From Hydrogenophilus sp. (lineage in GTDB: Bacteria; Pseudomonadota; Gammaproteobacteria; Burkholderiales; Thiobacillaceae): a stretch of 64,000 nucleotides of DNA. The stretch spans positions 1 to 64,000 of the forward strand of contig DYFK01000011.1 in assembly GCA_020725265.1 (NCBI GenBank). Reading direction: 5' to 3'. This document shows, piece by piece, positions 1-10,013 of the stretch. A program made the translations under genes and the position numbers. A model generated the notes under the pieces. That model searched no databases. It was not told the origin of the DNA and saw nothing but the letters and a program-made list of their open reading frames with translations. Each line of letters begins with the position of its first letter. The first letter of the stretch is position 1.

Positions 1-652
1 CTAGATCATCGGCGGTTTGTTCGTTGAATTGGTCGGACGCGAGGTTGGCGGCGGGACCGTCGATTTCCACATGGCGGCCGAACAAGGTCAGCAGAGGATT
101 CTCCGAAAAACCCCCACCCACCGGGAAGTTGTGGCTGGCGCGCTGGGCCATGGTGCCGCCTTTGTCCTGCCAGGCCAGGAGGGCGGTCAACATCTCTGGG
201 ACATTGCGCAAGTGGGCAATGCCGGTGGGCAAATCCAGCCAGCTTGCGAAGTAATGGGTGAGAAAGGCGCGCTGCACTACCTCCTCGTGGCCCAGTTCGT
301 GCTCCTTGTTTTCCAGGCAATACGTCAGCAGCAAATCGGCCAGCATGGCCGGACCGTGGCCGCCAGCAAACCCGTCGAAATCCCCCCCAGCACGGGTGAG
401 CAAACCACCGGCCACATCGACCAAGCGGGGCGGTTGCGCCTTGCCCTTGGCATCTTCCTGGCCGAAGGTCTCAATGAAATGCCCCTTGCCGCGCCGGTGA
501 CCCCAGCGCGCCATGTAGAGCATGGCCGGCAACAGGCTGCCGATCTCGAAATGCTGCGGGGTGAAGGGCAGCGCGGGGAAATAGTTCGCGCTCCACAACT
601 CCTTGGCCCGCGCCGGTGTCAGGACGTTCTCGACGATGGTCTTTGCGTTCAT
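1..652 (-). CDS. Unknown protein downstream of the NERD-kinase gene (partial, C-terminus outside window)
   Basis: The reading frame is open from an ATG at 652 to the window edge, giving 217 codons and no stop. It begins MNAKTIVENVLTPARAKELW. I do not recognise the family. The visible part is soluble, with no signal peptide or membrane segment, and contains an aromatic and histidine-rich stretch (YMARWGHRRGKGHF, HEEVVQRAFLTHYFASWLDL). Its ATG overlaps the TGA of the upstream kinase gene as ATGA, which indicates translational coupling and joint function. Context suggests a partner in a kinase-containing anti-phage locus; that is inference only. Confidence 0.8.
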   Translation of the reverse strand, partial: MNAKTIVENVLTPARAKELWSANYFPALPFTPQHFEIGSLLPAMLYMARWGHRRGKGHFIETFGQEDAKGKAQPPRLVDVAGGLLTRAGGDFDGFAGGHGPAMLADLLLTYCLENKEHELGHEEVVQRAFLTHYFASWLDLPTGIAHLRNVPEMLTALLAWQDKGGTMAQRASHNFPVGGGFSENPLLTLFGRHVEIDGPAANLASDQFNEQTADDL

Positions 653-3600
653 GCCTCCTCCCTCACCAATACCTGCCGTCCATCCCGAGCCTCGACCCGC
701 ACCCGGAACATGCTGTCCTCCTCGCCGGGGTGCCAGCCATGCAGTTCGCGGGCATCTTCCTGGGCCAGGCGCTGGGTGAAGATTTCCAGGTGGGCGAACA
801 CGCCTTCCTGGCCGGCGCCGGCAAGTTGGGCGCCGTCCTTCAGGGCCAGCAGCAAGTGAAACAGTTCCAGGCCGATGGGCAGGTGTTCCTCACCGCCGGC
901 CGCGGTGCGATAGACCAGTCGCAAATGGGTATGCAGCGCCTCCAGCCCCTCGGTGGTCTTCGGTAGCGGGGCTTCCAGGCGAAAACGCGGCCATGGTTTC
1001 ACCACCCAGAAGGCACTTTCGGTGGGCGTGCGCGGCTGGATGCGCAGCGGCAGGCCCGCTTCCCGCGCGAAGGCGGTCTCGGGCAAGTCTTCCAGGCGGG
1101 CGATGCCCAGGCAGAGTTCCCGGCATAGCGTTTCGCGCTCGTCTTCGCTCATCAGCGGTACGCGGCGGAATCGGTCCAGATGGCGTCCACCGAACAACGG
1201 CAGGGCGTCGGCGGGCAGTTGCAGCGCCGCGTAGCGCGGGGCATCCCATTCGAACCAAGCGCGGCGGCGGGCGGAGGCCAGGGCGGTGACGATGTCGTCG
1301 GGGCCATGGGGCGTTTCCTTGAGCAGATGCCGATCCAGCAACGGGTTGCTGTCCAGCGCCGGGTCGAAGCGGGCAAGTTCCGCGAGCAATTCACCCTGGC
1401 GTTGCGGCGCATCGGCGGCGAAGGCGCGGTCCCAATAGCGCGGCGGCATCAACTCGGGATCGGCGTGGAGTTCGTTGCAGTCATGCACGCCGAAAAAGAT
1501 GAAGGTCAGCGCCGAACGCAGCTCCCGCGCCGTGATATGGGCCTCGCCACGCAGGTGGCAAGCTTGTAGGGCATCCGCCAGCCGCGCGCGTGCTCGATCA
1601 CCGAGTTCCGGGGTTCGCAGGGTCTGCACGGAATGCCATGCGGTGCATCGATGTTGCGCCATGCAGGTTATGCAGCCGCCCCAGGGATCCTGTTCCTGTT
1701 CTATGCCGAGAAAACGGTCCAGCAGGGCGGTCAGGAAATCCGCCCGTATTTCACCGGCCTGGATGCCGCCCACCAGGGAGCGGCGATTCAGGTCGATGAG
1801 GCGGATACGCCCATCGAGCGCCGGTATGTCCTCGTCGTCGGTCTCGAATAGCACGCCGTAGAGTTGTCGGGTCAATGGGCTTTCGTCCTGGGTTTCCAGC
1901 CACTCCAGCAACTTTCCGCTGTTGATGGCAAGTACGCGGGGGTTCGCGGCGGCGCCATCGAAATCCAGGTCGTGACAAGGCTGGAAGAACTGGTGAAGCA
2001 GGGTATTGGCCGACAGGTCTTGCCAGGCGGCGGAGCCATCCAGGTTGACCGTCAACAGGCGGCCATCGGCGAGACGGTGTTCCTGTACGCGCTGGGAGGA
2101 ATGGACATCGGCGACCCCCAGCCCCGCCAGGAGATGTTGCAGGAAAGCGGTTTTTCCGTCCCCGGCATTGCCGAACAAGATGGTGAGCTTGACCTGATCC
2201 TGTTCCAGTTCGCGCCGCAACACCTCATCCAGCCGGGTTTCCACATAGGTGTTGGCCGCGAAAACCGAATCGAGGCCGCGCGTTTCGCTGTTGCCGTGGC
2301 GGGAACCCGGATAAGCGGTGAGCAGTTCCGTAAGGCGCGGTGCAGTGTTTTCCGTGAAAGCGGGGGCCGGTAGGGGCGCCTCGGAATCGCCCGATGACGA
2401 GTGGGCGAGAACAGCCAGCGCCGCGCGGGCATCCATGAAGCGTTCACCCTCGTTTGGGCTGGTGGCGCGGTTGAGGAACTCAACTACGCGCTCAAGTCCC
2501 GCGCTATTGATACCTTCCCAGTTCAGTCCCCGGTTCTTGCTGCGTTGTCCGGCGAAGTTGAAGGGTTCACGCTCGAACAGGGCATGAAAAATACTAGCGG
2601 CCAGGGCGAAAAGATCGTCGCTGGGCTGGATCGCCGTGCCACTTTCTACACGGTGGCTGGCATAGAGGGGATTGCGGCTGCGCGCCGGGCTGCCGGCATC
2701 GGTGACGGTGTCGTAGTCGGTCAACACCACCTCGCCTCCCTGGACGATGAGGTTGCGCGGGCTGACATCACCATGCACCAGGCCGACTTGATGCAGGGCC
2801 CAGAGGGCCTCGCAGAGGCCGCGCAGCCAGCGCAGCAACAGATCTTGCAGGCTGGTCTCGCCCAACTCCTCGGCATGCAGGGCGAGCACACCGGATAGAT
2901 CGGCCAGCGGCATGCCTTCCACCCATTTCAACAACGCGACGAAGCGATCCGGCCGCCAGTCCGGTGCGATTTCGTGGATAGTAGAAAGATGCGGATGCAC
3001 GGTATAGGCACGCGCCTTGCGATAGGCGCGCAGGGCCGGCTCGGCATCCGCTTGGTGATGGATCAGCTTGGCGACATAGGTGCCATAGCGTTCTTCTGAA
3101 CAGGCATCCACCTCGACCACCTTGAAAGTCTGGCCGATACCGCCGCGCCCCAGTCGACTGACGATCTTGTAATTGGCGTTCTGAAATGGCACCACGGTGT
3201 CTTCATCCCAGTATTCCGGGGCGGGGAGTTCGACTTGTGGCTGGGTGATCGGCGCGGTATTTCGTTCCAGCACGGCCGCCAGGTCGGTCAGCGACTCGCG
3301 GCCTTCGGGATTATGGGCGCATCCTTGTTCCAGGAAATCCCGCGCTTCCCTAGCGCGTGCATCGTCCTCCACAAACAGTGTCATCAGGCTGACGCACAAC
3401 GCATACACATCCGAACGGGCATCGGCCGCTACCAAGCCACCTTGCCGCACTTCCGGAGCGACGTAGGGGGTGTCGTCGCCAAAATCCACGGGCGCGAGGG
3501 AAATGGTCAGCGCCTGATCAAGGCGAGCCAAGCTGAAATCGGTGAACAAGGGTCGGCCGTTGTGGCGCACCCGCAGGGTATGGGGAGTGATACGGCGGTG

Positions 3601-4560
3601 GATGATGCGCTGCAATCCCGGCTCTTGAGGTTGATGAAAATCGGCCAGAGCCAGCAGCGCTTCCCGCGCATAACGCAGGCGGTCATCCAGACTCCAGGCG
3701 GTATCCCTGGCGCGTTCGGCCAGGGTGGGCGCGGCGGGGTCGACCATGGAGAACCAGAACAACTCGCCTGGATAGTGTTCGGCATCCTGGAAGGAATCGA
3801 GCATGCTGGGCAGGTAGGGCGACTTCTGCCAGTGCTGCATGACGTCGTACTCGCGGCGTGCGCGGTTCTCGGCGTCTTTGTCGTCGGAGGCGGAGAGGTC
3901 GTAGAGATGCAGGACGACCTTGTCGCGCCGGGTGGGATGCTGGCCGCGATAAGCGCGGTGGAATGGCGCATCCGGCGTAAGAATTCGTTCCAGGTTGATG
4001 AGCCCAGCGAAACTGCGTAGATCGCCGTTCAGCGCTGTACGCGCCATCGGTTCCAGGAGCAAAGCGGCGCGCTCGACCTGAGCGGGCGCCAACCGCACGG
4101 CGGCATCAGCTTCGACCAATTCACGCCATTCGCTCAGCCCGAACACAGGCACGCCGCGCGGTGTTATGCGTTGCCCACCCTGTATGCCGGTGCCGCCACG
4201 TGTGAGCAAAAACCGTGGTGCTACAAATCCGGGGTCGAAGGCGGTTTTCAGCTTGCCGGCAATTCGCTTGGCCTTGTCGTTGATGCGCTCGGCTTCGTTG
4301 TCGACGATCTGAGGATTCTGCTTCAGCCAGGCGGTATCCCAATGCTTGACCTCAACCACGAACACACCTGGTGGCCCGATGACGACCTGGTCGATCTCAT
4401 CCGAAAGCCGGCCGGCATGACTGGAATGACTGAGATTGGAGAGCAGCACCCAGGTGCCGGAAATGCCTTGCAGCTTACCCTTGAGTTTTTCGATAGCTTG
4501 GGCTTCGCTCGCATTGACCGCCGCACTACAGGGGATGTGTCTGAAACCTGAAACCGCCAT
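649..4560 (-). CDS. NERD-domain / pseudokinase / protein kinase / P-loop NTPase protein, PglW-like (putative anti-phage)
   Basis: A 1303-aa protein, started at ATG 4560, which has a GGGAGAGG ribosome site; an upstream in-frame ATG at 4653 lacks one. Residues 15-110 are a NERD domain with the DEIDQVVIGPPGVFVVEVK core (D-ExK nuclease signature). Residues 210-430 form a kinase fold with HRR in place of HRD and DFS in place of DFG, so it is probably a pseudokinase. Residues 463-720 are a second kinase with a GRGGIGQTF loop, VAK lysine, HGDVSPRN catalytic loop and DYD metal site, and look active. A Walker A motif GNAGDGKT lies at 796-803, followed by a Cys cluster C962-x2-C965-x5-C971. NERD plus Ser/Thr kinase is the architecture of PglW of BREX type 2 and of kinases in methylation-associated defence loci. 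The defence role is inferred. Its codon use and GC look less extreme than the genes to its right. Confidence 0.85.
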   Translation of the reverse strand: MAVSGFRHIPCSAAVNASEAQAIEKLKGKLQGISGTWVLLSNLSHSSHAGRLSDEIDQVVIGPPGVFVVEVKHWDTAWLKQNPQIVDNEAERINDKAKRIAGKLKTAFDPGFVAPRFLLTRGGTGIQGGQRITPRGVPVFGLSEWRELVEADAAVRLAPAQVERAALLLEPMARTALNGDLRSFAGLINLERILTPDAPFHRAYRGQHPTRRDKVVLHLYDLSASDDKDAENRARREYDVMQHWQKSPYLPSMLDSFQDAEHYPGELFWFSMVDPAAPTLAERARDTAWSLDDRLRYAREALLALADFHQPQEPGLQRIIHRRITPHTLRVRHNGRPLFTDFSLARLDQALTISLAPVDFGDDTPYVAPEVRQGGLVAADARSDVYALCVSLMTLFVEDDARAREARDFLEQGCAHNPEGRESLTDLAAVLERNTAPITQPQVELPAPEYWDEDTVVPFQNANYKIVSRLGRGGIGQTFKVVEVDACSEERYGTYVAKLIHHQADAEPALRAYRKARAYTVHPHLSTIHEIAPDWRPDRFVALLKWVEGMPLADLSGVLALHAEELGETSLQDLLLRWLRGLCEALWALHQVGLVHGDVSPRNLIVQGGEVVLTDYDTVTDAGSPARSRNPLYASHRVESGTAIQPSDDLFALAASIFHALFEREPFNFAGQRSKNRGLNWEGINSAGLERVVEFLNRATSPNEGERFMDARAALAVLAHSSSGDSEAPLPAPAFTENTAPRLTELLTAYPGSRHGNSETRGLDSVFAANTYVETRLDEVLRRELEQDQVKLTILFGNAGDGKTAFLQHLLAGLGVADVHSSQRVQEHRLADGRLLTVNLDGSAAWQDLSANTLLHQFFQPCHDLDFDGAAANPRVLAINSGKLLEWLETQDESPLTRQLYGVLFETDDEDIPALDGRIRLIDLNRRSLVGGIQAGEIRADFLTALLDRFLGIEQEQDPWGGCITCMAQHRCTAWHSVQTLRTPELGDRARARLADALQACHLRGEAHITARELRSALTFIFFGVHDCNELHADPELMPPRYWDRAFAADAPQRQGELLAELARFDPALDSNPLLDRHLLKETPHGPDDIVTALASARRRAWFEWDAPRYAALQLPADALPLFGGRHLDRFRRVPLMSEDERETLCRELCLGIARLEDLPETAFAREAGLPLRIQPRTPTESAFWVVKPWPRFRLEAPLPKTTEGLEALHTHLRLVYRTAAGGEEHLPIGLELFHLLLALKDGAQLAGAGQEGVFAHLEIFTQRLAQEDARELHGWHPGEEDSMFRVRVEARDGRQVLVREEA

Positions 4561-4636
4561 ATTGCCTCTCCCACCGTTCTTGATATCCCAATGCATTGAA
4601 TTGTAAAGCGGGGGTATCGATAGTGGGATTTCAACA

Positions 4637-4660
4637 GTAGTAGGGCACAACAACTACTAC
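4637..4660. repeat. 7-bp inverted repeat upstream of the NERD-kinase gene
   Basis: GTAGTAG at 4637-4643 is mirrored by CTACTAC at 4654-4660 with a 10-nt spacer. It lies about 80-100 bp upstream of the kinase start, so it could be an operator or a hairpin in the leader. Nothing else recognisable is seen between 4561 and 4843. Confidence 0.4.
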
Positions 4661-4843: not shown

Positions 4844-5134
4844 TCAACCGCCGCTGGCCGGCCGGCAGGTGTAGAGATGGGCTTCCTCGGTGCCGCCCCG
4901 GCATTCGGGGGTGGGGGTGTCCAGGTATTCGCAATAGGGATTGCAGACCTGGGTGAAGCAGCGCGCGGTGCGGCCGAGGGTGGTCGACGCGCACATGTCT
5001 TCGTAAGGTTCCTCGCCCGGCGAGCCGGCGAACGGTTCGCCCTGGCAATCGCCGATGCCGACGCGTTCCCAGGTGGCGCCGGCGGCGACGACCACCGGTG
5101 CCGTCAAGGTCAGGGCAAGGAAGATCCGGAACAT
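4844..5134 (-). CDS. Small secreted cysteine-rich protein, unknown function
   Basis: A 96-aa frame starting at ATG 5134. The N-terminus MFRIFLALTLTAPVVVAAG is a typical Sec signal peptide with cleavage near AAG-AT. The mature part contains eight cysteines in about 75 residues (for example GDCQGE, DMCAS, ARCFTQVCNPYCEY, PECRG, YTCRP), suggesting a disulfide-stabilised periplasmic or exported peptide. It is divergent from the flavoprotein gene to its right. I do not recognise a family, and the call rests on the clean signal peptide plus Cys spacing. Confidence 0.6.
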   Translation of the reverse strand: MFRIFLALTLTAPVVVAAGATWERVGIGDCQGEPFAGSPGEEPYEDMCASTTLGRTARCFTQVCNPYCEYLDTPTPECRGGTEEAHLYTCRPASGG

Positions 5135-5235
5135 GCGCCGGAGTATCGGCGCGCCGGCCGGGGCCATCCACGACGGCGATCAAGAATGCCGGGCAAACCC
5201 TACAATCCGGGCTTTCCTTCCTCGCCGGGGTTGCC

Positions 5236-6489
5236 GTGACCCACGCTCCGAACGGCCGCGCGGCGGCCGGCGCCGGCGGCCGCGTCGTCGTGATCGGCGG
5301 CGGGCCGGCCGGTCTGATGGCGGCCGAGGCCGCGTTACGGGCCGGCGCCGCGGTCGAGCTGTTCGACGCCATGCCTTCGGTCGGCCGCAAGTTCCTGATG
5401 GCCGGCCGGGGCGGTCTCAATCTCACCCATTCGGAACCGCTCGCCGCCTTCCTGTCCCGCTATGGCGAGCGCCGGCGCGAGATCGAACCGCTGCTGGCGG
5501 CGTTCGGCCCGGACGATCTGCGCGCCTGGGCGGCCGGGCTCGGCGTCGAGACCTTCGTCGGCAGTTCCGGCCGCGTGTTTCCGACCGAAATGAAGGCGGC
5601 GCCGTTGCTGCGCGCCTGGCTGCGCCGACTGCGCGCGGACGGCGCGCGCATCCACGTCCGGCATCGCTGGCTGGGCTGGGACGCCGCCGGCCGCGCGCGC
5701 TTCGCCACGCCGGCCGGCGAGATCGCCGTCGCCGCCGATGCCTGCGTGCTCGCGCTCGGCGGCGGCAGTTGGGCGAAGCTGGGTTCCGACGGCGCCTGGC
5801 CGCCGATCCTGACCGCGCGCGGCGTCGCGGTGGCGCCGCTGAAGCCGGCCAACTGCGGTTTCGACGCCGACTGGAGCGCGCATTTCCGGGACCGTTTCGC
5901 CGGCCAGCCGGTGAAAACGGTGGCCCTGGAGTTCGCCGGGGAAAGCCGGCGCGGCGAGTTCGTGATCACCGAAACCGGTGTCGAGGGCAGCCTGATCTAC
6001 GCGTTTTCGGCCCGCCTGCGCGACGCCATCGCGGTCGACGGCGCGGCCATCTGCCATCTCGACCTGCTGCCGGATCGGGACGCCCGATCGGTCGCCGCCG
6101 AAGTCGCCCGGCCGCGCGGCGGCCGCTCGCTGTCCAGCCATCTGCGCGGCCGGCTCGGCCTGGCCGGCGTCAAGGCCGGCCTGTTGCGCGAGTGCCTGGC
6201 CCCGGATGCCTTCGCCGACGCCGCCGCGCTGGCCGCCGCGATCAAGGCGCTGCCGGTGCGACTGGCGCGGCCGCGGCCGCTCGACGAAGCCATCAGCAGC
6301 GCCGGCGGCGTCGATTTCGCGGCCCTGGACGCCGGCCTGATGGCGCGCGACCTGCCCGGCGTGTTCTGCGCCGGCGAGATGCTGGACTGGGAAGCGCCGA
6401 CCGGCGGCTACCTGCTCACCGCCTGTTTCGCCAGCGGCCTGGTGGCCGGGCGGGCGGCGGCGGAACACGCCCGACGATCGGCGCGCTGA
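5236..6489 (+). CDS. NAD(P)/FAD-dependent oxidoreductase, BaiN/HI0933-like
   Basis: The frame is open from 5098, but FAD-binding homology starts at VVVIGGGPAGLMAAEAALRA (Rossmann GxGxxG), so the GTG at 5236 is the preferred start (417 aa). The protein shows VGRKFLMAGRGGLNLTHSE, the hallmark of the HI0933/BaiN flavoprotein family, and a C-terminal FCAGEMLDWEAPTGGYLLTACFASG second FAD-contact segment. Family members are soluble flavoproteins, mostly uncharacterised; the BaiN name comes from bile-acid reductases and does not define the substrate here. It sits immediately upstream of the nifN promoter, but its stop precedes the NifA site, so it is not part of that operon. The start is uncertain because no clear ribosome site is visible. 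Confidence 0.85.
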   Translation: MTHAPNGRAAAGAGGRVVVIGGGPAGLMAAEAALRAGAAVELFDAMPSVGRKFLMAGRGGLNLTHSEPLAAFLSRYGERRREIEPLLAAFGPDDLRAWAAGLGVETFVGSSGRVFPTEMKAAPLLRAWLRRLRADGARIHVRHRWLGWDAAGRARFATPAGEIAVAADACVLALGGGSWAKLGSDGAWPPILTARGVAVAPLKPANCGFDADWSAHFRDRFAGQPVKTVALEFAGESRRGEFVITETGVEGSLIYAFSARLRDAIAVDGAAICHLDLLPDRDARSVAAEVARPRGGRSLSSHLRGRLGLAGVKAGLLRECLAPDAFADAAALAAAIKALPVRLARPRPLDEAISSAGGVDFAALDAGLMARDLPGVFCAGEMLDWEAPTGGYLLTACFASGLVAGRAAAEHARRSAR

Positions 6490-6538
6490 TGGCCGGGCGG
6501 GTGCCGGCTTGGTGGGTTGTCGCCCCGACGGTCCGCGT

Positions 6539-6554
6539 TGTCGCATTCGCGACA
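6539..6554 (+). promoter_or_regulatory. NifA upstream activator site for nifN
   Basis: Perfect TGT-N10-ACA (TGT 6539-6541, ACA 6552-6554), with a palindromic interior. It lies 44 bp upstream of the -24 element of the nifN promoter. Confidence 0.8.
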
Positions 6555-6598
6555 ACGTCCATAGCCGGCAAACCGATGAAATAAAAGGACTTTGTCGG

Positions 6599-6613
6599 TG
6601 GCATGCGGCTTGC
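6599..6613 (+). promoter_or_regulatory. Sigma-54 (-24/-12) promoter of the nifN operon
   Basis: TGGCATG-CGGC-TTGC matches the TGGCACG-N4-TTGC consensus with one substitution and has the obligatory GG-N10-GC spacing. The predicted transcript start is about 30 bp before the nifN ATG. Confidence 0.85.
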
Positions 6614-6651
6614 GATGGTGCATCCACCATCGTCAACCCGTCCTTCCAGCC

Positions 6652-8043
6652 ATGGCCGAGATCGTCAAACGCAGCAAAGCCCTCGCGGTGAACCCGCTCA
6701 AGGTGAGCCAGCCGGTGGGCGCGTCGCTGGCCTTCCTGGGCATCCACCGGGCCATCCCGATGATGCACGGCTCGCAGGGTTGCACGGCATTCGCCAAGGT
6801 GTTCTTCGTCCGCCATTTCCGTGAGCCGATTCCGCTCCAGACCACGGCCATGGACCAGGGCAGCACGGTGATGGGCGCCGACGAGAACGTCATCGTCGGT
6901 CTCAAGACCGTCGCCGAGAAATCGAAACCCGCCCTGATCGGTCTGCCGACCACCGGTCTGTCCGAGACCGAGGGCACCGACATCCACCGCCTGGTCAAGG
7001 AATTCCGCGCCCAGCACCCCGAATACGACGACATTCCGGTGGTGCCGGTGAACACGCCGGATTTCACCGGTTGCCTGGAGTCCGGTTACGCGCTGGCGAT
7101 CAAGGCGGTGGTCGAATTCGTGGTGCCGGCCAATACCGGCAAGGTCGGCCGACGCAAGAAACAGGTCAACGTGCTGGCCGGCTCGCATCTGACGCCGGGC
7201 GACCTCGAACACATCCAGGAACTGATCGAAGCCTTCGGCTTGCGGCCGGTGTTGCTGCCGGACATCTCCGGCTCGCTCGACGGCCACCTCACCGACATGC
7301 AATTCAGCCCGGTCACGGTCGGCGGCACGCCGGTATCCGAGATCGCGGCCATGGGCGAATCCATTGCCACCCTGGTGCTCGGCCGCGCCTCGCACCCGGC
7401 CGCCGACGCCCTCAAGGAACGCACCGGCGTGCCCGATTTCCGCTTCGACAGCCTGATGGGCCTGGAAAACGTCGACGCCTTCATCGCCACGCTGGCCGAA
7501 ATCAGCGGCCAGCCGGTGCCGGAAAAACTGGAGCGCCAGCGCGCCCAGCTTCAGGACGCCATGGTCGATACCCATTTCATGCTCGGCTTCGCCCGCATCG
7601 CCATCGCCGCCGATCCCGATCTCCTGTTCGGTCTCGCCAATCTGGTCGCCGGCATGGGCTGCGAGGTGACGGCGGCGGTGGCGCCGGCCAAGTCGCCGGT
7701 ACTGGCCAGCGTGCCCACCGCCGAAGTGAAGCTGGGCGACCTTCAGGATCTGGAGAAGGCCATCGCCGAGCACGGCGCGGACCTGATCCTGTGCAACTCG
7801 CACGCCGTCGACACCGCCAAGCGTCTGGGCCTGCCCCTGATCCGGGCCGGTTTCCCGCAATACGACCTGATCGGCGGCTATCAGAAGCTGTGGGTCGGCT
7901 ACCGGGGCACCCGGCAGACCCTGTTCGATCTCGCCAACACCCTGGTCCAGCACGGCCATCACGAGATCGAACCCTACCGCTCCCTCTACTCGGACCGCCC
8001 CGAGGATCGCCATGCGGCATCTGAAACTCGTTCATTCCACTGA
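6652..8043 (+). CDS. nifN: Nitrogenase FeMo-cofactor biosynthesis protein NifN
   Basis: A 463-aa protein starting [17 protein letters not shown], the family's characteristic N-terminus, so the ATG at 6652 is preferred over 6592. It contains [20 protein letters not shown] with Cys44, the position of the conserved cluster-ligand cysteine in NifK/NifN. NifN pairs with NifE to form the NifE2N2 scaffold on which NifB-co matures to FeMo-co. nifE is not next to it: the upstream neighbour is an unrelated flavoprotein and nifN has its own NifA/sigma-54 promoter. The 3' end overlaps nifX by 32 nt. Confidence 0.97.
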
Positions 8044-8479
8044 GCCGGAGCCGGCCATGCGCGTCCGTATCGCCTTCGCCAGCGCCGACCGGAAGACGGT
8101 GGACCAGCATTTCGGCGCCGCCGAGGCATTCGTGATCTACGAGCTGTCCGAGAACGATGCCCGGCTGGTCGAGGCGGTCGAATTCCACGATGGCGATACC
8201 GCCATGGATGGCCACGAAGGCAAGCTGGCGTCCAAGATCGCCCTGCTCGGCGGCTGCGCGGCGGTGTATTGCAACGCCGTCGGCGGTTCCGCGATCAAGC
8301 AGCTGGTGGCCGCCGGCATCCAGCCGATGAAGGTCGAGGAAGGCACGCCGGTGGACGAACTGCTGTGCGGCCTCAATCAGGCCATGCTCAAGGAACCGCC
8401 GGTCTGGATGGCCAGGCATCTGAAGACCGCCGACGCCAGCCGCTTCGACGCCATGGACGAGGAAGGGTGGTCGGAATGA
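8012..8479 (+). CDS. nifX: Nitrogen fixation protein NifX
   Basis: A 155-aa protein with the NifX/NafY dinitrogenase-iron-molybdenum-cofactor fold: [23 protein letters not shown] near residue 18, then [24 protein letters not shown]. The family binds NifB-co, VK-cluster and FeMo-co and shuttles them around NifEN. The start at 8012 overlaps the nifN 3' end and has a CCGAGGA ribosome site; a Met at residue 16 is an alternative. The stop overlaps the start of the next small ORF (ATGA). Confidence 0.95.
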
Positions 8480-8637
8480 TGAGCGCGGGCATGCGCGAGT
8501 TGCGTCGCCAGCGCTGGACCCGGATGGCCCGGCCGGCACCGGTGGCCGGAAGCCCGGCGGCGCCCGGCGCATGGTCGCGTCCGCTGGCGTGGCTGGCGTC
8601 GGCCGCGCGGGCGTGGCCGCATGGAGCGCGGTCATGA
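8476..8637 (+). CDS. 53-aa basic hypothetical protein coupled between nifX and the RseC-like gene
   Basis: ATG 8476 overlaps the nifX stop (ATGA), and its own TGA (8635-8637) overlaps the ATG of the next gene (8634). The product [20 protein letters not shown]... is arginine-rich at the N-terminus, followed by an Ala/Trp-rich segment (PLAWLASAARAWPHG). I know no family. Stop/start overlap at both ends is the main support; it may serve only to couple translation across the gap. Confidence 0.45.
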   Translation: MMSAGMRELRRQRWTRMARPAPVAGSPAAPGAWSRPLAWLASAARAWPHGARS

Positions 8638-9041
8638 TCGAGACCCGCGTGCGCGTGCTCCGCAACGGCGATGGCGTCAGCTTCGTCGAGGCCACCGAAA
8701 AAAACGGCTGCGGCGCCTGCGCCAGCCAGGACAGTTGCGGCATTTCCGGCCTCGGCCGTTTCTTCAACCGTAAACGCCCGCCGATCGCGCTCGCCTGCGG
8801 CGAGGTCCGTCCCGGCCAGGAGCTGACCGTCGCGGTGGCCGAGGCCGATCTGCTCAAGGTCGGCCTGTGGGCCTACCTGCTGCCGGTCAGCCTCGCGGTC
8901 GCCGGCGCGCTGACGCTGGCCCGGCTGGGCGACGTCGGCGCGGCGGCGGGCGCCGCCTTCGGCCTCGGCGCCGGCCTGCTGCTGGCCCGGCGCTTTGCCG
9001 CCACCCCCAGAATTTCCATTACTTCCGGAGAAAAACCATGA
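8634..9041 (+). CDS. RseC/SoxR-reducing-system-like membrane protein
   Basis: A 135-aa protein from ATG 8634. It shows a GCGACASQDSCGI cysteine cluster (C-x2-C-x5-C) at about residues 26-35, then two hydrophobic spans (LLKVGLWAYLLPVSLAVAGAL; GAAAGAAFGLGAGLLLA), the RseC architecture. RseC normally accompanies the Rnf/Rsx ion-pumping complex; Rnf can supply low-potential electrons to nitrogenase. No rnf genes are in the window, so the partner is unknown. Its stop overlaps the ATG of the next gene (ATGA). Confidence 0.85.
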   Translation: MIETRVRVLRNGDGVSFVEATEKNGCGACASQDSCGISGLGRFFNRKRPPIALACGEVRPGQELTVAVAEADLLKVGLWAYLLPVSLAVAGALTLARLGDVGAAAGAAFGLGAGLLLARRFAATPRISITSGEKP

Positions 9042-9499
9042 CCGAAACCGTCGAACTCGACCCGATCCTGACCACCGATTTCATCAAGGAGATGTCCAAG
9101 CAGATGCGCGCCATCGACAGCTACGGTACCTACGATGGCTGGCCGGTGGAAAAGATTCTCGCGCCTTTCGTCAAGACCAAGGAGCAGCGTCGCGAGATTC
9201 CCGTGATCGGCGACCCGGACGAGGAAACCCTGGCGCGCGTGAAGTGCTTCTACAACGCCATCGCCGTGCTGATCGAAAAGGAATGCGGCCACATGGCGGT
9301 GCCCATGGTCAACATCACCCACGAAGGTTTCGGCCGCGCCCTGATCACCGTCGGCAAGCTGGTGGTGATGGACCGCACCGTGCGCGACGTCCACCGCTTC
9401 AGCTTCGACAGCCTGTCGAAGATGAAGGACGAGGCCGACAAACTGCTGTCGGTGGCGCTCGAAATCGTCGGCAAGTATCCCGAAGTGGCCGGGTTGTAA
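9038..9499 (+). CDS. NifX-associated nitrogen fixation protein (DUF269 family)
   Basis: A 153-aa protein with a TTCCGGAG ribosome site before ATG 9038. It carries the family hallmarks FIKEMSKQMRAIDSYGTYDGW and GFGRALITVGKLVVMDRTVRDVHRFGF-like sequence (here ...HRFSF). This family nearly always follows nifX or nifN in proteobacterial nif operons. Biochemical function is not established; a role in cofactor or electron-transfer maturation is assumed from context. Confidence 0.93.
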   Translation: MTETVELDPILTTDFIKEMSKQMRAIDSYGTYDGWPVEKILAPFVKTKEQRREIPVIGDPDEETLARVKCFYNAIAVLIEKECGHMAVPMVNITHEGFGRALITVGKLVVMDRTVRDVHRFSFDSLSKMKDEADKLLSVALEIVGKYPEVAGL

Positions 9500-9509
9500 G
9501 GAGTTGACG

Positions 9510-9719
9510 ATGACCGAGGAAGAACTGAAGGACCTCGACCGCGAGGTCAAGAAATTGAAGCGCATGGCCAGCGAATGGGCCTCGCAACTGCACGATCTGG
9601 TGGAAGACCGCCTGCCGGCCGGCTACCAGGAAATCCCGGGCATCGCCCAATCCACCTACGACGCCTGCAAGGCCTGGGCCGACGCCAACGCCCGCCTGGC
9701 GGCCGCCCAGAAAGGCTGA
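9510..9719 (+). CDS. CCE_0567-family metalloprotein (DUF683)
   Basis: A 69-aa helical protein MTEEELKDLDREVKKLKRMA... ending in RLAAAQKG. ATG 9510 follows TAAGGAG at good spacing; the TTG at 9504 is rejected because it lies within that ribosome site. The family is a small four-helix/coiled-coil metal-binding protein found directly after DUF269 genes in nif operons. The conserved DLHDLVEDRLP-like block is present (QLHDLVEDRLPAGYQEIPGI). Confidence 0.9.
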   Translation: MTEEELKDLDREVKKLKRMASEWASQLHDLVEDRLPAGYQEIPGIAQSTYDACKAWADANARLAAAQKG

Positions 9720-9722
9720 ACC

Positions 9723-10013
9723 ATGGACGCCTATACCGCATTGACCCGGGGCGGTGTCGCCTGGACCCCGGAATTCGTGGTCGATCTCAACCAGAAGGTC
9801 TGCATCGGCTGCGGCCGTTGTTACAAGGTCTGCCCGCGTGACGTGCTGTCGCTGGAGGAACGCGACGAGGACGAGATCGACGAGGACATGGACGAGGACC
9901 AGATGAGCGTGATGACCATCAAGAACGCCATGGACTGCATCGGCTGCGGCGCCTGCGGCCGGGTCTGTCCGAAGAACTGTTACACCCACGCGGCGATGCC
10001 GGTGGCGGCTTGA
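9723..10013 (+). CDS. fdxB: Nif-specific ferredoxin III, 2[4Fe-4S] (FdxB)
   Basis: A 96-aa ferredoxin with two cluster motifs, CIGCGRCYKVCP and CIGCGACGRVCPKNC. They are separated by a strongly acidic insert (ERDEDEIDEDMDEDQ) that likely forms the partner-docking surface. FdxB is a low-potential electron donor in nif operons, probably for nitrogenase or cofactor synthesis. It starts 3 bp after the preceding stop. Confidence 0.95.
   Translation: MDAYTALTRGGVAWTPEFVVDLNQKVCIGCGRCYKVCPRDVLSLEERDEDEIDEDMDEDQMSVMTIKNAMDCIGCGACGRVCPKNCYTHAAMPVAA

Follow-up and report, generated by a model that had tools for sequence, protein, structure and literature searches.

An operon split between two contigs

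The window analysed here is a stretch of 64,000 nucleotides from Hydrogenophilus sp. (assembly GCA_020725265.1, contig DYFK01000011.1, positions 1 to 64,000). At its left edge, on the reverse strand, lies a gene for a large multidomain protein, here called gene A. The reading frame is open over 649-4653 and encodes 1334 amino acids (aa) from a TTG, or 1303 aa from an ATG at 4560. We preferred the shorter form because a purine-rich, ribosome-site-like stretch lies upstream of the ATG, and residues of A are numbered accordingly. Profile searches matched Pfam NERD (35.8 bits, cut-off 22.1) and, in two stretches, Pkinase (65.3 bits, cut-off 31.7), as well as PADLOC SspF (51.4 bits over residues 804-1058) and NCBIfam MAD6 (186.6 bits, under its cut-off of 460; best stretch residues 40-587). 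The sequence also contains a Walker A motif (GNAGDGKT) and a C-x2-C-x5-C cluster. The Pfam and PADLOC matches and the sequence itself thereby confirm a first-pass annotation of this DNA, which had described a 1303-aa protein with a NERD domain, two kinase folds, a Walker A motif and a cysteine cluster.

The same annotation had seen start/stop coupling to a partner leaving the window. The TGA of gene A indeed overlaps the ATG of a second gene, B, as ATGA at 652-649, and B is cut by the contig end; its first 217 residues matched no Pfam, PADLOC or NCBIfam family. As the window starts at base 1 of its contig (C25), the left side cannot be read there. Leftward extension, which the annotation had proposed, succeeded with full-length proteins of a relative (locus L010) as queries: the remainder of B was found at C10:61374-62489 (-) and a third large gene, C, at C10:54882-59780 (-). 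Both lie at the end of contig C10 (62492 bases) of the same genome. Read on the same strand, the end of C25 (...gatgatctag) and the end of C10 (ctaggtgtgg...) overlap by four bases with the frame of B preserved, the shared CTAG being C25:1-4 (window 1-4) and C10:62489-62492. The operon runs A, B, a 182-aa cysteine protein, a nucleotidyltransferase, a 141-aa protein and C (Table 1); it looks intact and is more complete than the window shows.

Table 1. Genes and domains of the operon; positions without a contig name refer to the window.
Feature	Position	Strand	Basis or remark
Gene A, 1303-aa DndF/MAD6-type protein (NERD, pseudokinase, kinase, P-loop kinase core, C-terminal region)	649..4560	-	
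NERD nuclease domain	4240..4512	-	Pfam match and conserved residues
First kinase domain, predicted pseudokinase	3370..3951	-	catalytic Asp missing
Second kinase domain, predicted active	2389..3180	-	catalytic residues invariant
P-loop nucleotide-kinase-like core (SspF/DptF-like)	1480..2244	-	Walker A at 2149-2172, Asn880 at Walker B position
C963-x2-C966-x5-C972 cluster	1645..1674	-	sequence, conservation
C-terminal region of gene A	652..1368	-	position only
Gene B, first 217 codons (MAD7-family; about 600 aa in relatives)	2..652	-	cut by contig end
182-aa protein with CxC and CxxC motifs	C10:60833-61381		
Nucleotidyltransferase	C10:60161-60781	-	Pfam NTP_transf_2
141-aa protein, putative toxin	C10:59788-60213	-	
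Gene C, restriction endonuclease-HerA/FtsK protein, 1644 aa	probable start C10:59786	-	

Homology to the MAD6-7-8 and DndFGH families

We compared the three large proteins with MAD6, MAD7 and MAD8 of methylation-associated defence (MADS) and with the DndFGH proteins DptF, DptG and DptH. The C-terminal half of A aligned in hhalign with MAD6 (100%), with two DptF (99.1%) and with six DptF (99.2%, E 6e-20; reversed control 0.1%). Walker A, the Walker B Asn and a lid motif, (I/L)TAR (ITAR/LTAR), are shared by A and DptF. The alignment of A with DptF ends at position 334 of the 555-aa C-terminal half; DndF is described as having a C-terminal alpha+beta domain as well (PMC10853773). B aligned with MAD7 (99.1%), and C with MAD8 (99.8%) and DptH (99.6-99.9%; with six DptH 99.9% over 520-1647, reversed control 0.1%). 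The HerA region of C also matched the solved DptH domain 7es4 (profile search, E 4.5e-12). Across the hhalign controls, reversed profiles gave 0.1% and five unrelated proteins 0.1-11.8%. Solved-structure searches returned nothing at E 1 for B, and weak P-loop matches of other families only (best E 0.035) for the C-terminal half of A. Family TIGR03236 was found in 0/229 genomes and also in 0/14 controls, hence this search was uninformative.

In a published account (Rakesh, Aravind and Krishnan, 2024; PMC10853773), DndF is a derived member of the P-loop kinases that carries Asn in Walker B and in some cases a zinc insert, DndG is a triple wHTH protein, and DndH is a multi-domain protein with a restriction endonuclease (REase) and a HerA/FtsK motor. 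The account treats DndFGH as a stand-alone system and includes NERD and tandem inactive and active kinases among the N-terminal fusions of DndF. The order NERD-inactive kinase-active kinase-DndF is restated, and compared with PglW, in PMC12839542. The marks of the DndF core (canonical Walker A, Asn in Walker B, an acidic residue after strand 2, a large lid) can be recognised in the sequence of A, and those of DndH (REase followed by a HerA/FtsK ATPase, sensor-1 Gln, Arg finger) in that of C. Upstream of its REase, DndH has inactive SWI2/SNF2, HTH, beta-sandwich, TRD and inactive methyltransferase domains (PMC10853773); the C-DptH profile alignment covers 520-1647 only. Our operon resembles stand-alone DndFGH (PMC10853773) in being a three-gene operon that usually lacks linked modification genes, in the domain order, Walker A, Walker B Asn and lid-region cysteine cluster of A, and in the REase and HerA/FtsK domains with sensor Gln of C. 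It differs in the nucleotidyltransferase/putative toxin pair and small cysteine protein that lie here between B and C, and in B, which by sequence is not recognisable as DptG. By homology, the P-loop half of A is predicted to be a DndF-type P-loop kinase.

The operon also resembles mad6-mad7-mad8 of MADS (NCBIfam NF047741, NF047733; PADLOC mad6-8), with three homologous genes in the same order. Unlike in MADS, no mad2-mad5 stand beside it, A is only 26% identical to MAD6, and equivalog cut-offs are not reached, neither for MAD6 by A nor for MAD7 by the B proteins of two relatives (98.3 and 99.7 against 410 bits). Judged by sequence, A is a divergent relative of MAD6. Genes above the MAD6 cut-off occurred in 2/398 genomes of the phylum, with frames of about 1380-1410 aa. 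Both (L097 and L098) precede a gene that the B profile recognises (43 and 26 bits); a C-like gene also follows in L098 (162 bits), and the third gene of L097, truncated where the fetched stretch ends, gave no match to C. As these MAD6 genes are equally long, the long architecture is normal for MAD6. We therefore rejected the view of the first-pass annotation that the P-loop/cysteine half is an extra fusion; the same fusion is already in print (PMC10853773, PMC12839542), and on both counts the suggestion of a new variant is weak.

SspFGH of Vibrio anguillarum is likewise a three-gene module of an ATPase, a G protein and an FtsK-like H protein; it damages unmodified DNA and harms mark-less cells, and is said to have no sequence homology to DndFGH (PMC8092258). 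A matches SspF (51 bits), and the Rhizobium relatives give only marginal matches of B to SspG (E 0.007) and of C to SspH (E 0.004). We noticed no SspBCD beside the operon; the 61 related loci described below were not searched for them.

From these comparisons, the operon formed by A, B, the cysteine protein, the nucleotidyltransferase/putative toxin pair and C probably encodes a DndFGH-class (MAD6-7-8-like) DNA restriction machine. The family has been described before, and the operon, which occurs here without the usual DNA-marking genes, is a member of it and not a new kind of system.

Conserved residues in genes A and C

Across 48 aligned homologues of gene A, the NERD residues D57, E70 and K72 are invariant. 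In the first kinase domain, the HRD position is occupied by N (27), R (7), H (5), A (4), Q (2), K (2) or S (1) and never by Asp, and a DFG-like Asp is present in only 13/48 homologues; we predict that this domain is a pseudokinase. In the second kinase domain, which is predicted to be active, K498, H596, G597, D598, N603, D615 and D617 are invariant in 48/48. The same holds for N798, K803, T804, D841, N880 and Walker A of the P-loop core, and for Cys 963, 966 and 972, which may correspond to the zinc-chelating lid insert reported for some DndF. Because the architecture recurs in tens of genomes and catalytic residues are invariant in 48 sequences, the make-up of gene A is more than chance.

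For gene C, 39 sequences were compared, with residues numbered in a 1674-aa frame. The REase residues D1130 and E1148 are each present in 37/39 and K1150 in 35/39, the sensor Gln in 38/39, and Arg1553 and the listed Walker A and B residues in 39/39. The amino-methyltransferase motif [NDS]PP[YFW] occurs in 0/39 C sequences, and [DS]PPH in three.

Distribution and integrity of the family

To collect relatives, GTDB genomes were scanned with gene B and two peptide patterns, a procedure that misses distant relatives. This yielded 61 loci (numbered L), many of them in metagenome bins, from Pseudomonadota, Chlorobiota, Chloroflexota, Planctomycetota, Verrucomicrobiota, Acidobacteriota, Nitrospirota, Latescibacterota and others. 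In tblastn searches, 57/61 of these B loci hold A, 60/61 hold C and 56/61 hold both; tblastn added A in L027 and C in L026 to the ORF (open reading frame)-based counts (A 56, C 59, both 54). Four of the five loci without both genes (L039, L070, L074 and L076) end at a contig end on the missing side. A conserved three-gene operon is one of the marks of DndFGH (PMC10853773), and here A and C both accompany B in the great majority of loci. Two further copies lie on Rhizobium plasmids predicted to be conjugative. Within the class, B was matched in 4/369 genomes, our own included (one match is marginal, E 8.7e-4). A scan of viral contigs with B gave 62 pattern matches, none of which was confirmed, and we rejected a viral home for the operon.

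B occurs in tandem at some loci, with four copies in L061 (6056-13785) and two in L040 (8094-11800), and L057:11748-13169 holds a second B-like ORF. These copies fit a role of B as specificity subunit. Signs of decay were seen elsewhere: in L071 the operon genes lie in several frames and look decayed, and L029:6073-17754, L035:11801-16807 and L062:11824-16954 have one or two split genes each, through either decay or assembly error.

The genes between B and C have a narrower distribution. The nucleotidyltransferase scored 30.1 bits against Pfam NTP_transf_2 (cut-off 21) and resembles MntA antitoxins, below the cut-off (29.5 versus 60). Its 141-aa partner matched neither Pfam (at 0.001) nor NCBIfam (at 0.05); the pairing with a nucleotidyltransferase suggests a HEPN-type toxin. 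In tblastn searches of 65 loci, the nucleotidyltransferase was also found in six relatives (L021, L025, L026, L028, L029 and L032), with the partner whole in five and reduced to a 29-residue remnant in L028, and the 182-aa protein had a match in L025 and a partial one in L021. On the tree, a single clade unites our operon with L025, L026, L028 and L032, and L021 is nearby; L029, whose A is split, was left out. The pair is a clade-specific insertion.

Modification genes near the operon and in trans

In line with the first-pass annotation, which saw no methylase on the right side, neither the window nor C10:30000-62492 gave a profile or query match to mad2-mad5, methyltransferases or Dnd (mad1 was not searched). 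As no mad2-mad5 are nearby, the operon is not MADS proper. Candidate DNA methyltransferases lie near 8/61 loci (L018, L031, L046, L056, L065, L066, L067 and L069), a lower bound obtained with a limited query set on the fetched flanks only; six of the eight loci were checked with Pfam, and the other two rest on similarity to those six. When only loci whose flanks extend 3 kb or more on each side of A-C were considered, the count was 5/22 (ORF-based). Short fragments from the methyltransferase search were further found in L040 and L046. Together, mad2-mad5 occurred in 0/61 loci.

We then weighed whether the operon supplies the restriction side of a MADS-like system, with the gene for the protecting methyltransferase at another place in the genome, as the match of A, B and C to MAD6-7-8 would allow. 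In our genome PF01555 has two and PF02384 three matches that exceed the cut-off; they lie on contigs C18, C13, C8 and C12 and none on C10 or C25, and 8/8 carrier genomes tested match both families. Methyltransferase-free carriers, sought as proof of mark-independence, therefore failed us. Some relatives have linked genes of this sort: L031 has an HsdM/HsdS-like pair nearby and gave mad2- and mad5-like matches, L046 has a mad2-like gene, and R. anhuiense two methyltransferases directly after C. Against such a partnership, methyltransferases are linked to few loci and belong to several families (type I-like, type III-like and N4/N6 type), and neither mad3 nor mad4 was matched in the 61 loci (small profiles, tblastn). 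We regard this alternative as serious but rather unlikely. Linked modification genes are absent here and rare in relatives, a pattern that is compatible with protection in trans.

Genomic neighbourhood

Neighbouring genes were examined in 119 of 121 selected ORFs of relatives, two long ones (L018 and L023) having been dropped, and the figures are taken from the 25 commonest of 149 Pfam and 152 PADLOC families. Among the Pfam matches listed were N6_N4_Mtase (5), ResIII (4), phage integrase (3), PLD (3) and DarT (1). Those listed for PADLOC at E<=1e-20 included type III methyltransferase (3) and one each of Dsr2, Cas3c, DarG, PDC-S01 and type III REase. The control comprised 28 ORFs of this one window, all distant from the operon, and its only matches were one cysteine desulfurase-like and one helicase-like. 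In L056:1521-5716, L065:831-5920 and L067:829-5867, A is directly preceded, on its own strand, by a type III-like methyltransferase and an adjoining large ORF; by its position and the ResIII count, this ORF is probably Res.

The flanks in our own genome look different. From their translations they appear metabolic (nif genes, metal efflux), and NifN-like, NifX-like and ferredoxin genes begin just right of the operon (window 5098-10013). Both A and C have a GC content of 63%, compared with 68 and 71% in the flanks; the window beyond 5 kb is at 68%. Of the anti-phage island proposed in the first-pass annotation, the defence-type operon is supported, and the island is not shown in this genome. 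These metabolic flanks would suit a regulatory or DNA-repair operon that uses the same domains outside defence. Such a role is improbable given the patchy spread within the class, the many phyla, the occurrence on plasmids and the defence genes beside some relatives; type III restriction-modification, Dsr2, Cas3 and DarG matches show that homologues do occur in defence surroundings, the absence of which was to count against the annotation.

One of the 28 control ORFs (window 11554-63267) matches DndA/SspA models at 1e-146. We take it to be the cysteine desulfurase of the nif cluster and a trap for automatic Dnd/Ssp calls. Together with this match, the homology of A to DptF and of C to DptH could speak for dependence on phosphorothioate DNA made in trans, as in classic DndFGH or SspFGH. 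This is very improbable: when the 61 loci were searched with one or two query proteins each for DndB, DndC, DndD and DndE, nothing matched, and DndC had no match in our own genome, in a search that matched 5/14 controls, none of them over cut-off. The SspB search of our genome matched no control, and neither did PF13182 in its controls, hence this was uninformative.

Kinship with PglW of BREX type 2 or with kinases of methylation-associated defence had also been proposed, and profile searches favour the latter, MAD6 standing as a relative and PglW reaching 30 bits (cut-off 990). PglW begins with NERD, pseudokinase and kinase in the same order (PMC12839542), yet membership in BREX type 2 has next to no likelihood and was rejected, since the C-terminal half of A matches MAD6/DptF instead, the partners B and C match MAD7 and DptH/MAD8, and the best blastp segment to a protein of genome G376, taken as PglW by its neighbours, spans 77 residues. 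No PglX, PglZ or BrxC was recognised among the neighbours from translations; no model search for them was made.

Discussion

The reading of the operon as a DndFGH-class restriction machine is based on homology, gene order, conserved catalytic residues and the defence genes beside some relatives, from which we infer all functional steps. Several points weigh against it. B reached only 3.2-3.5% against DptG in hhalign, with no sequence match, so it is not recognisable as DptG. In L024, the roughly 1.9 kb present upstream of B contain no A. No other defence gene was recognised beside the operon in its own genome, and many ordinary genes are among those listed for the 149 Pfam families matched by neighbours of relatives. 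We found no functional test of this family in the literature. Finally, SspFGH harms cells that lack its modification (PMC8092258), which leaves a module without linked modification genes unexplained.

On balance, the operon very probably attacks invading DNA such as that of phages. In the mechanism we propose, B and the N-terminal part of C would bind DNA and set the target, the HerA/FtsK motor of C would move the DNA, and its REase would cut or nick it. A would be the sensor and regulator, with nucleotide bound in its P-loop core; its kinase, with the pseudokinase as partner, may phosphorylate A itself or a partner protein and thereby release the activity. The NERD domain could provide a second nuclease, and the inserted nucleotidyltransferase/toxin pair may serve as backup in this clade. 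Both the trigger and the sparing of self DNA are conjectural parts of this model.

The comparison of the known families with each other suggests a common restriction engine for MADS and Dnd, because MAD6 aligned with DptF at 99.2% and MAD8 with DptH at 96.2% (hhalign); MAD7 and DptG, at 9.6%, do not support this. We found no statement of such a shared engine in the literature consulted, though the original MADS paper, reportedly Maestri 2024, may contain one. MADS is listed as methylation-based, with its restriction mechanism unknown, in PMC12904381, and the word 'mads' gave 0 hits in a 2026 BREX paper by the Dnd authors. Tentatively, and with more doubt than confidence, we suggest that one F-G-H engine may serve several self-marking chemistries. 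MADS would then be the DndFGH/SspFGH engine combined with methylation, and the family described here would be the same engine without marking, held off by the kinase/pseudokinase pair until an infection signal arrives, with the embedded toxin pair as a fail-safe.

The operon raises the question of how the host chromosome escapes a machine that destroys DNA yet has no self-marking enzyme linked to it. With its conserved kinase, nuclease and motor residues, this family is a good test case for such self-sparing.

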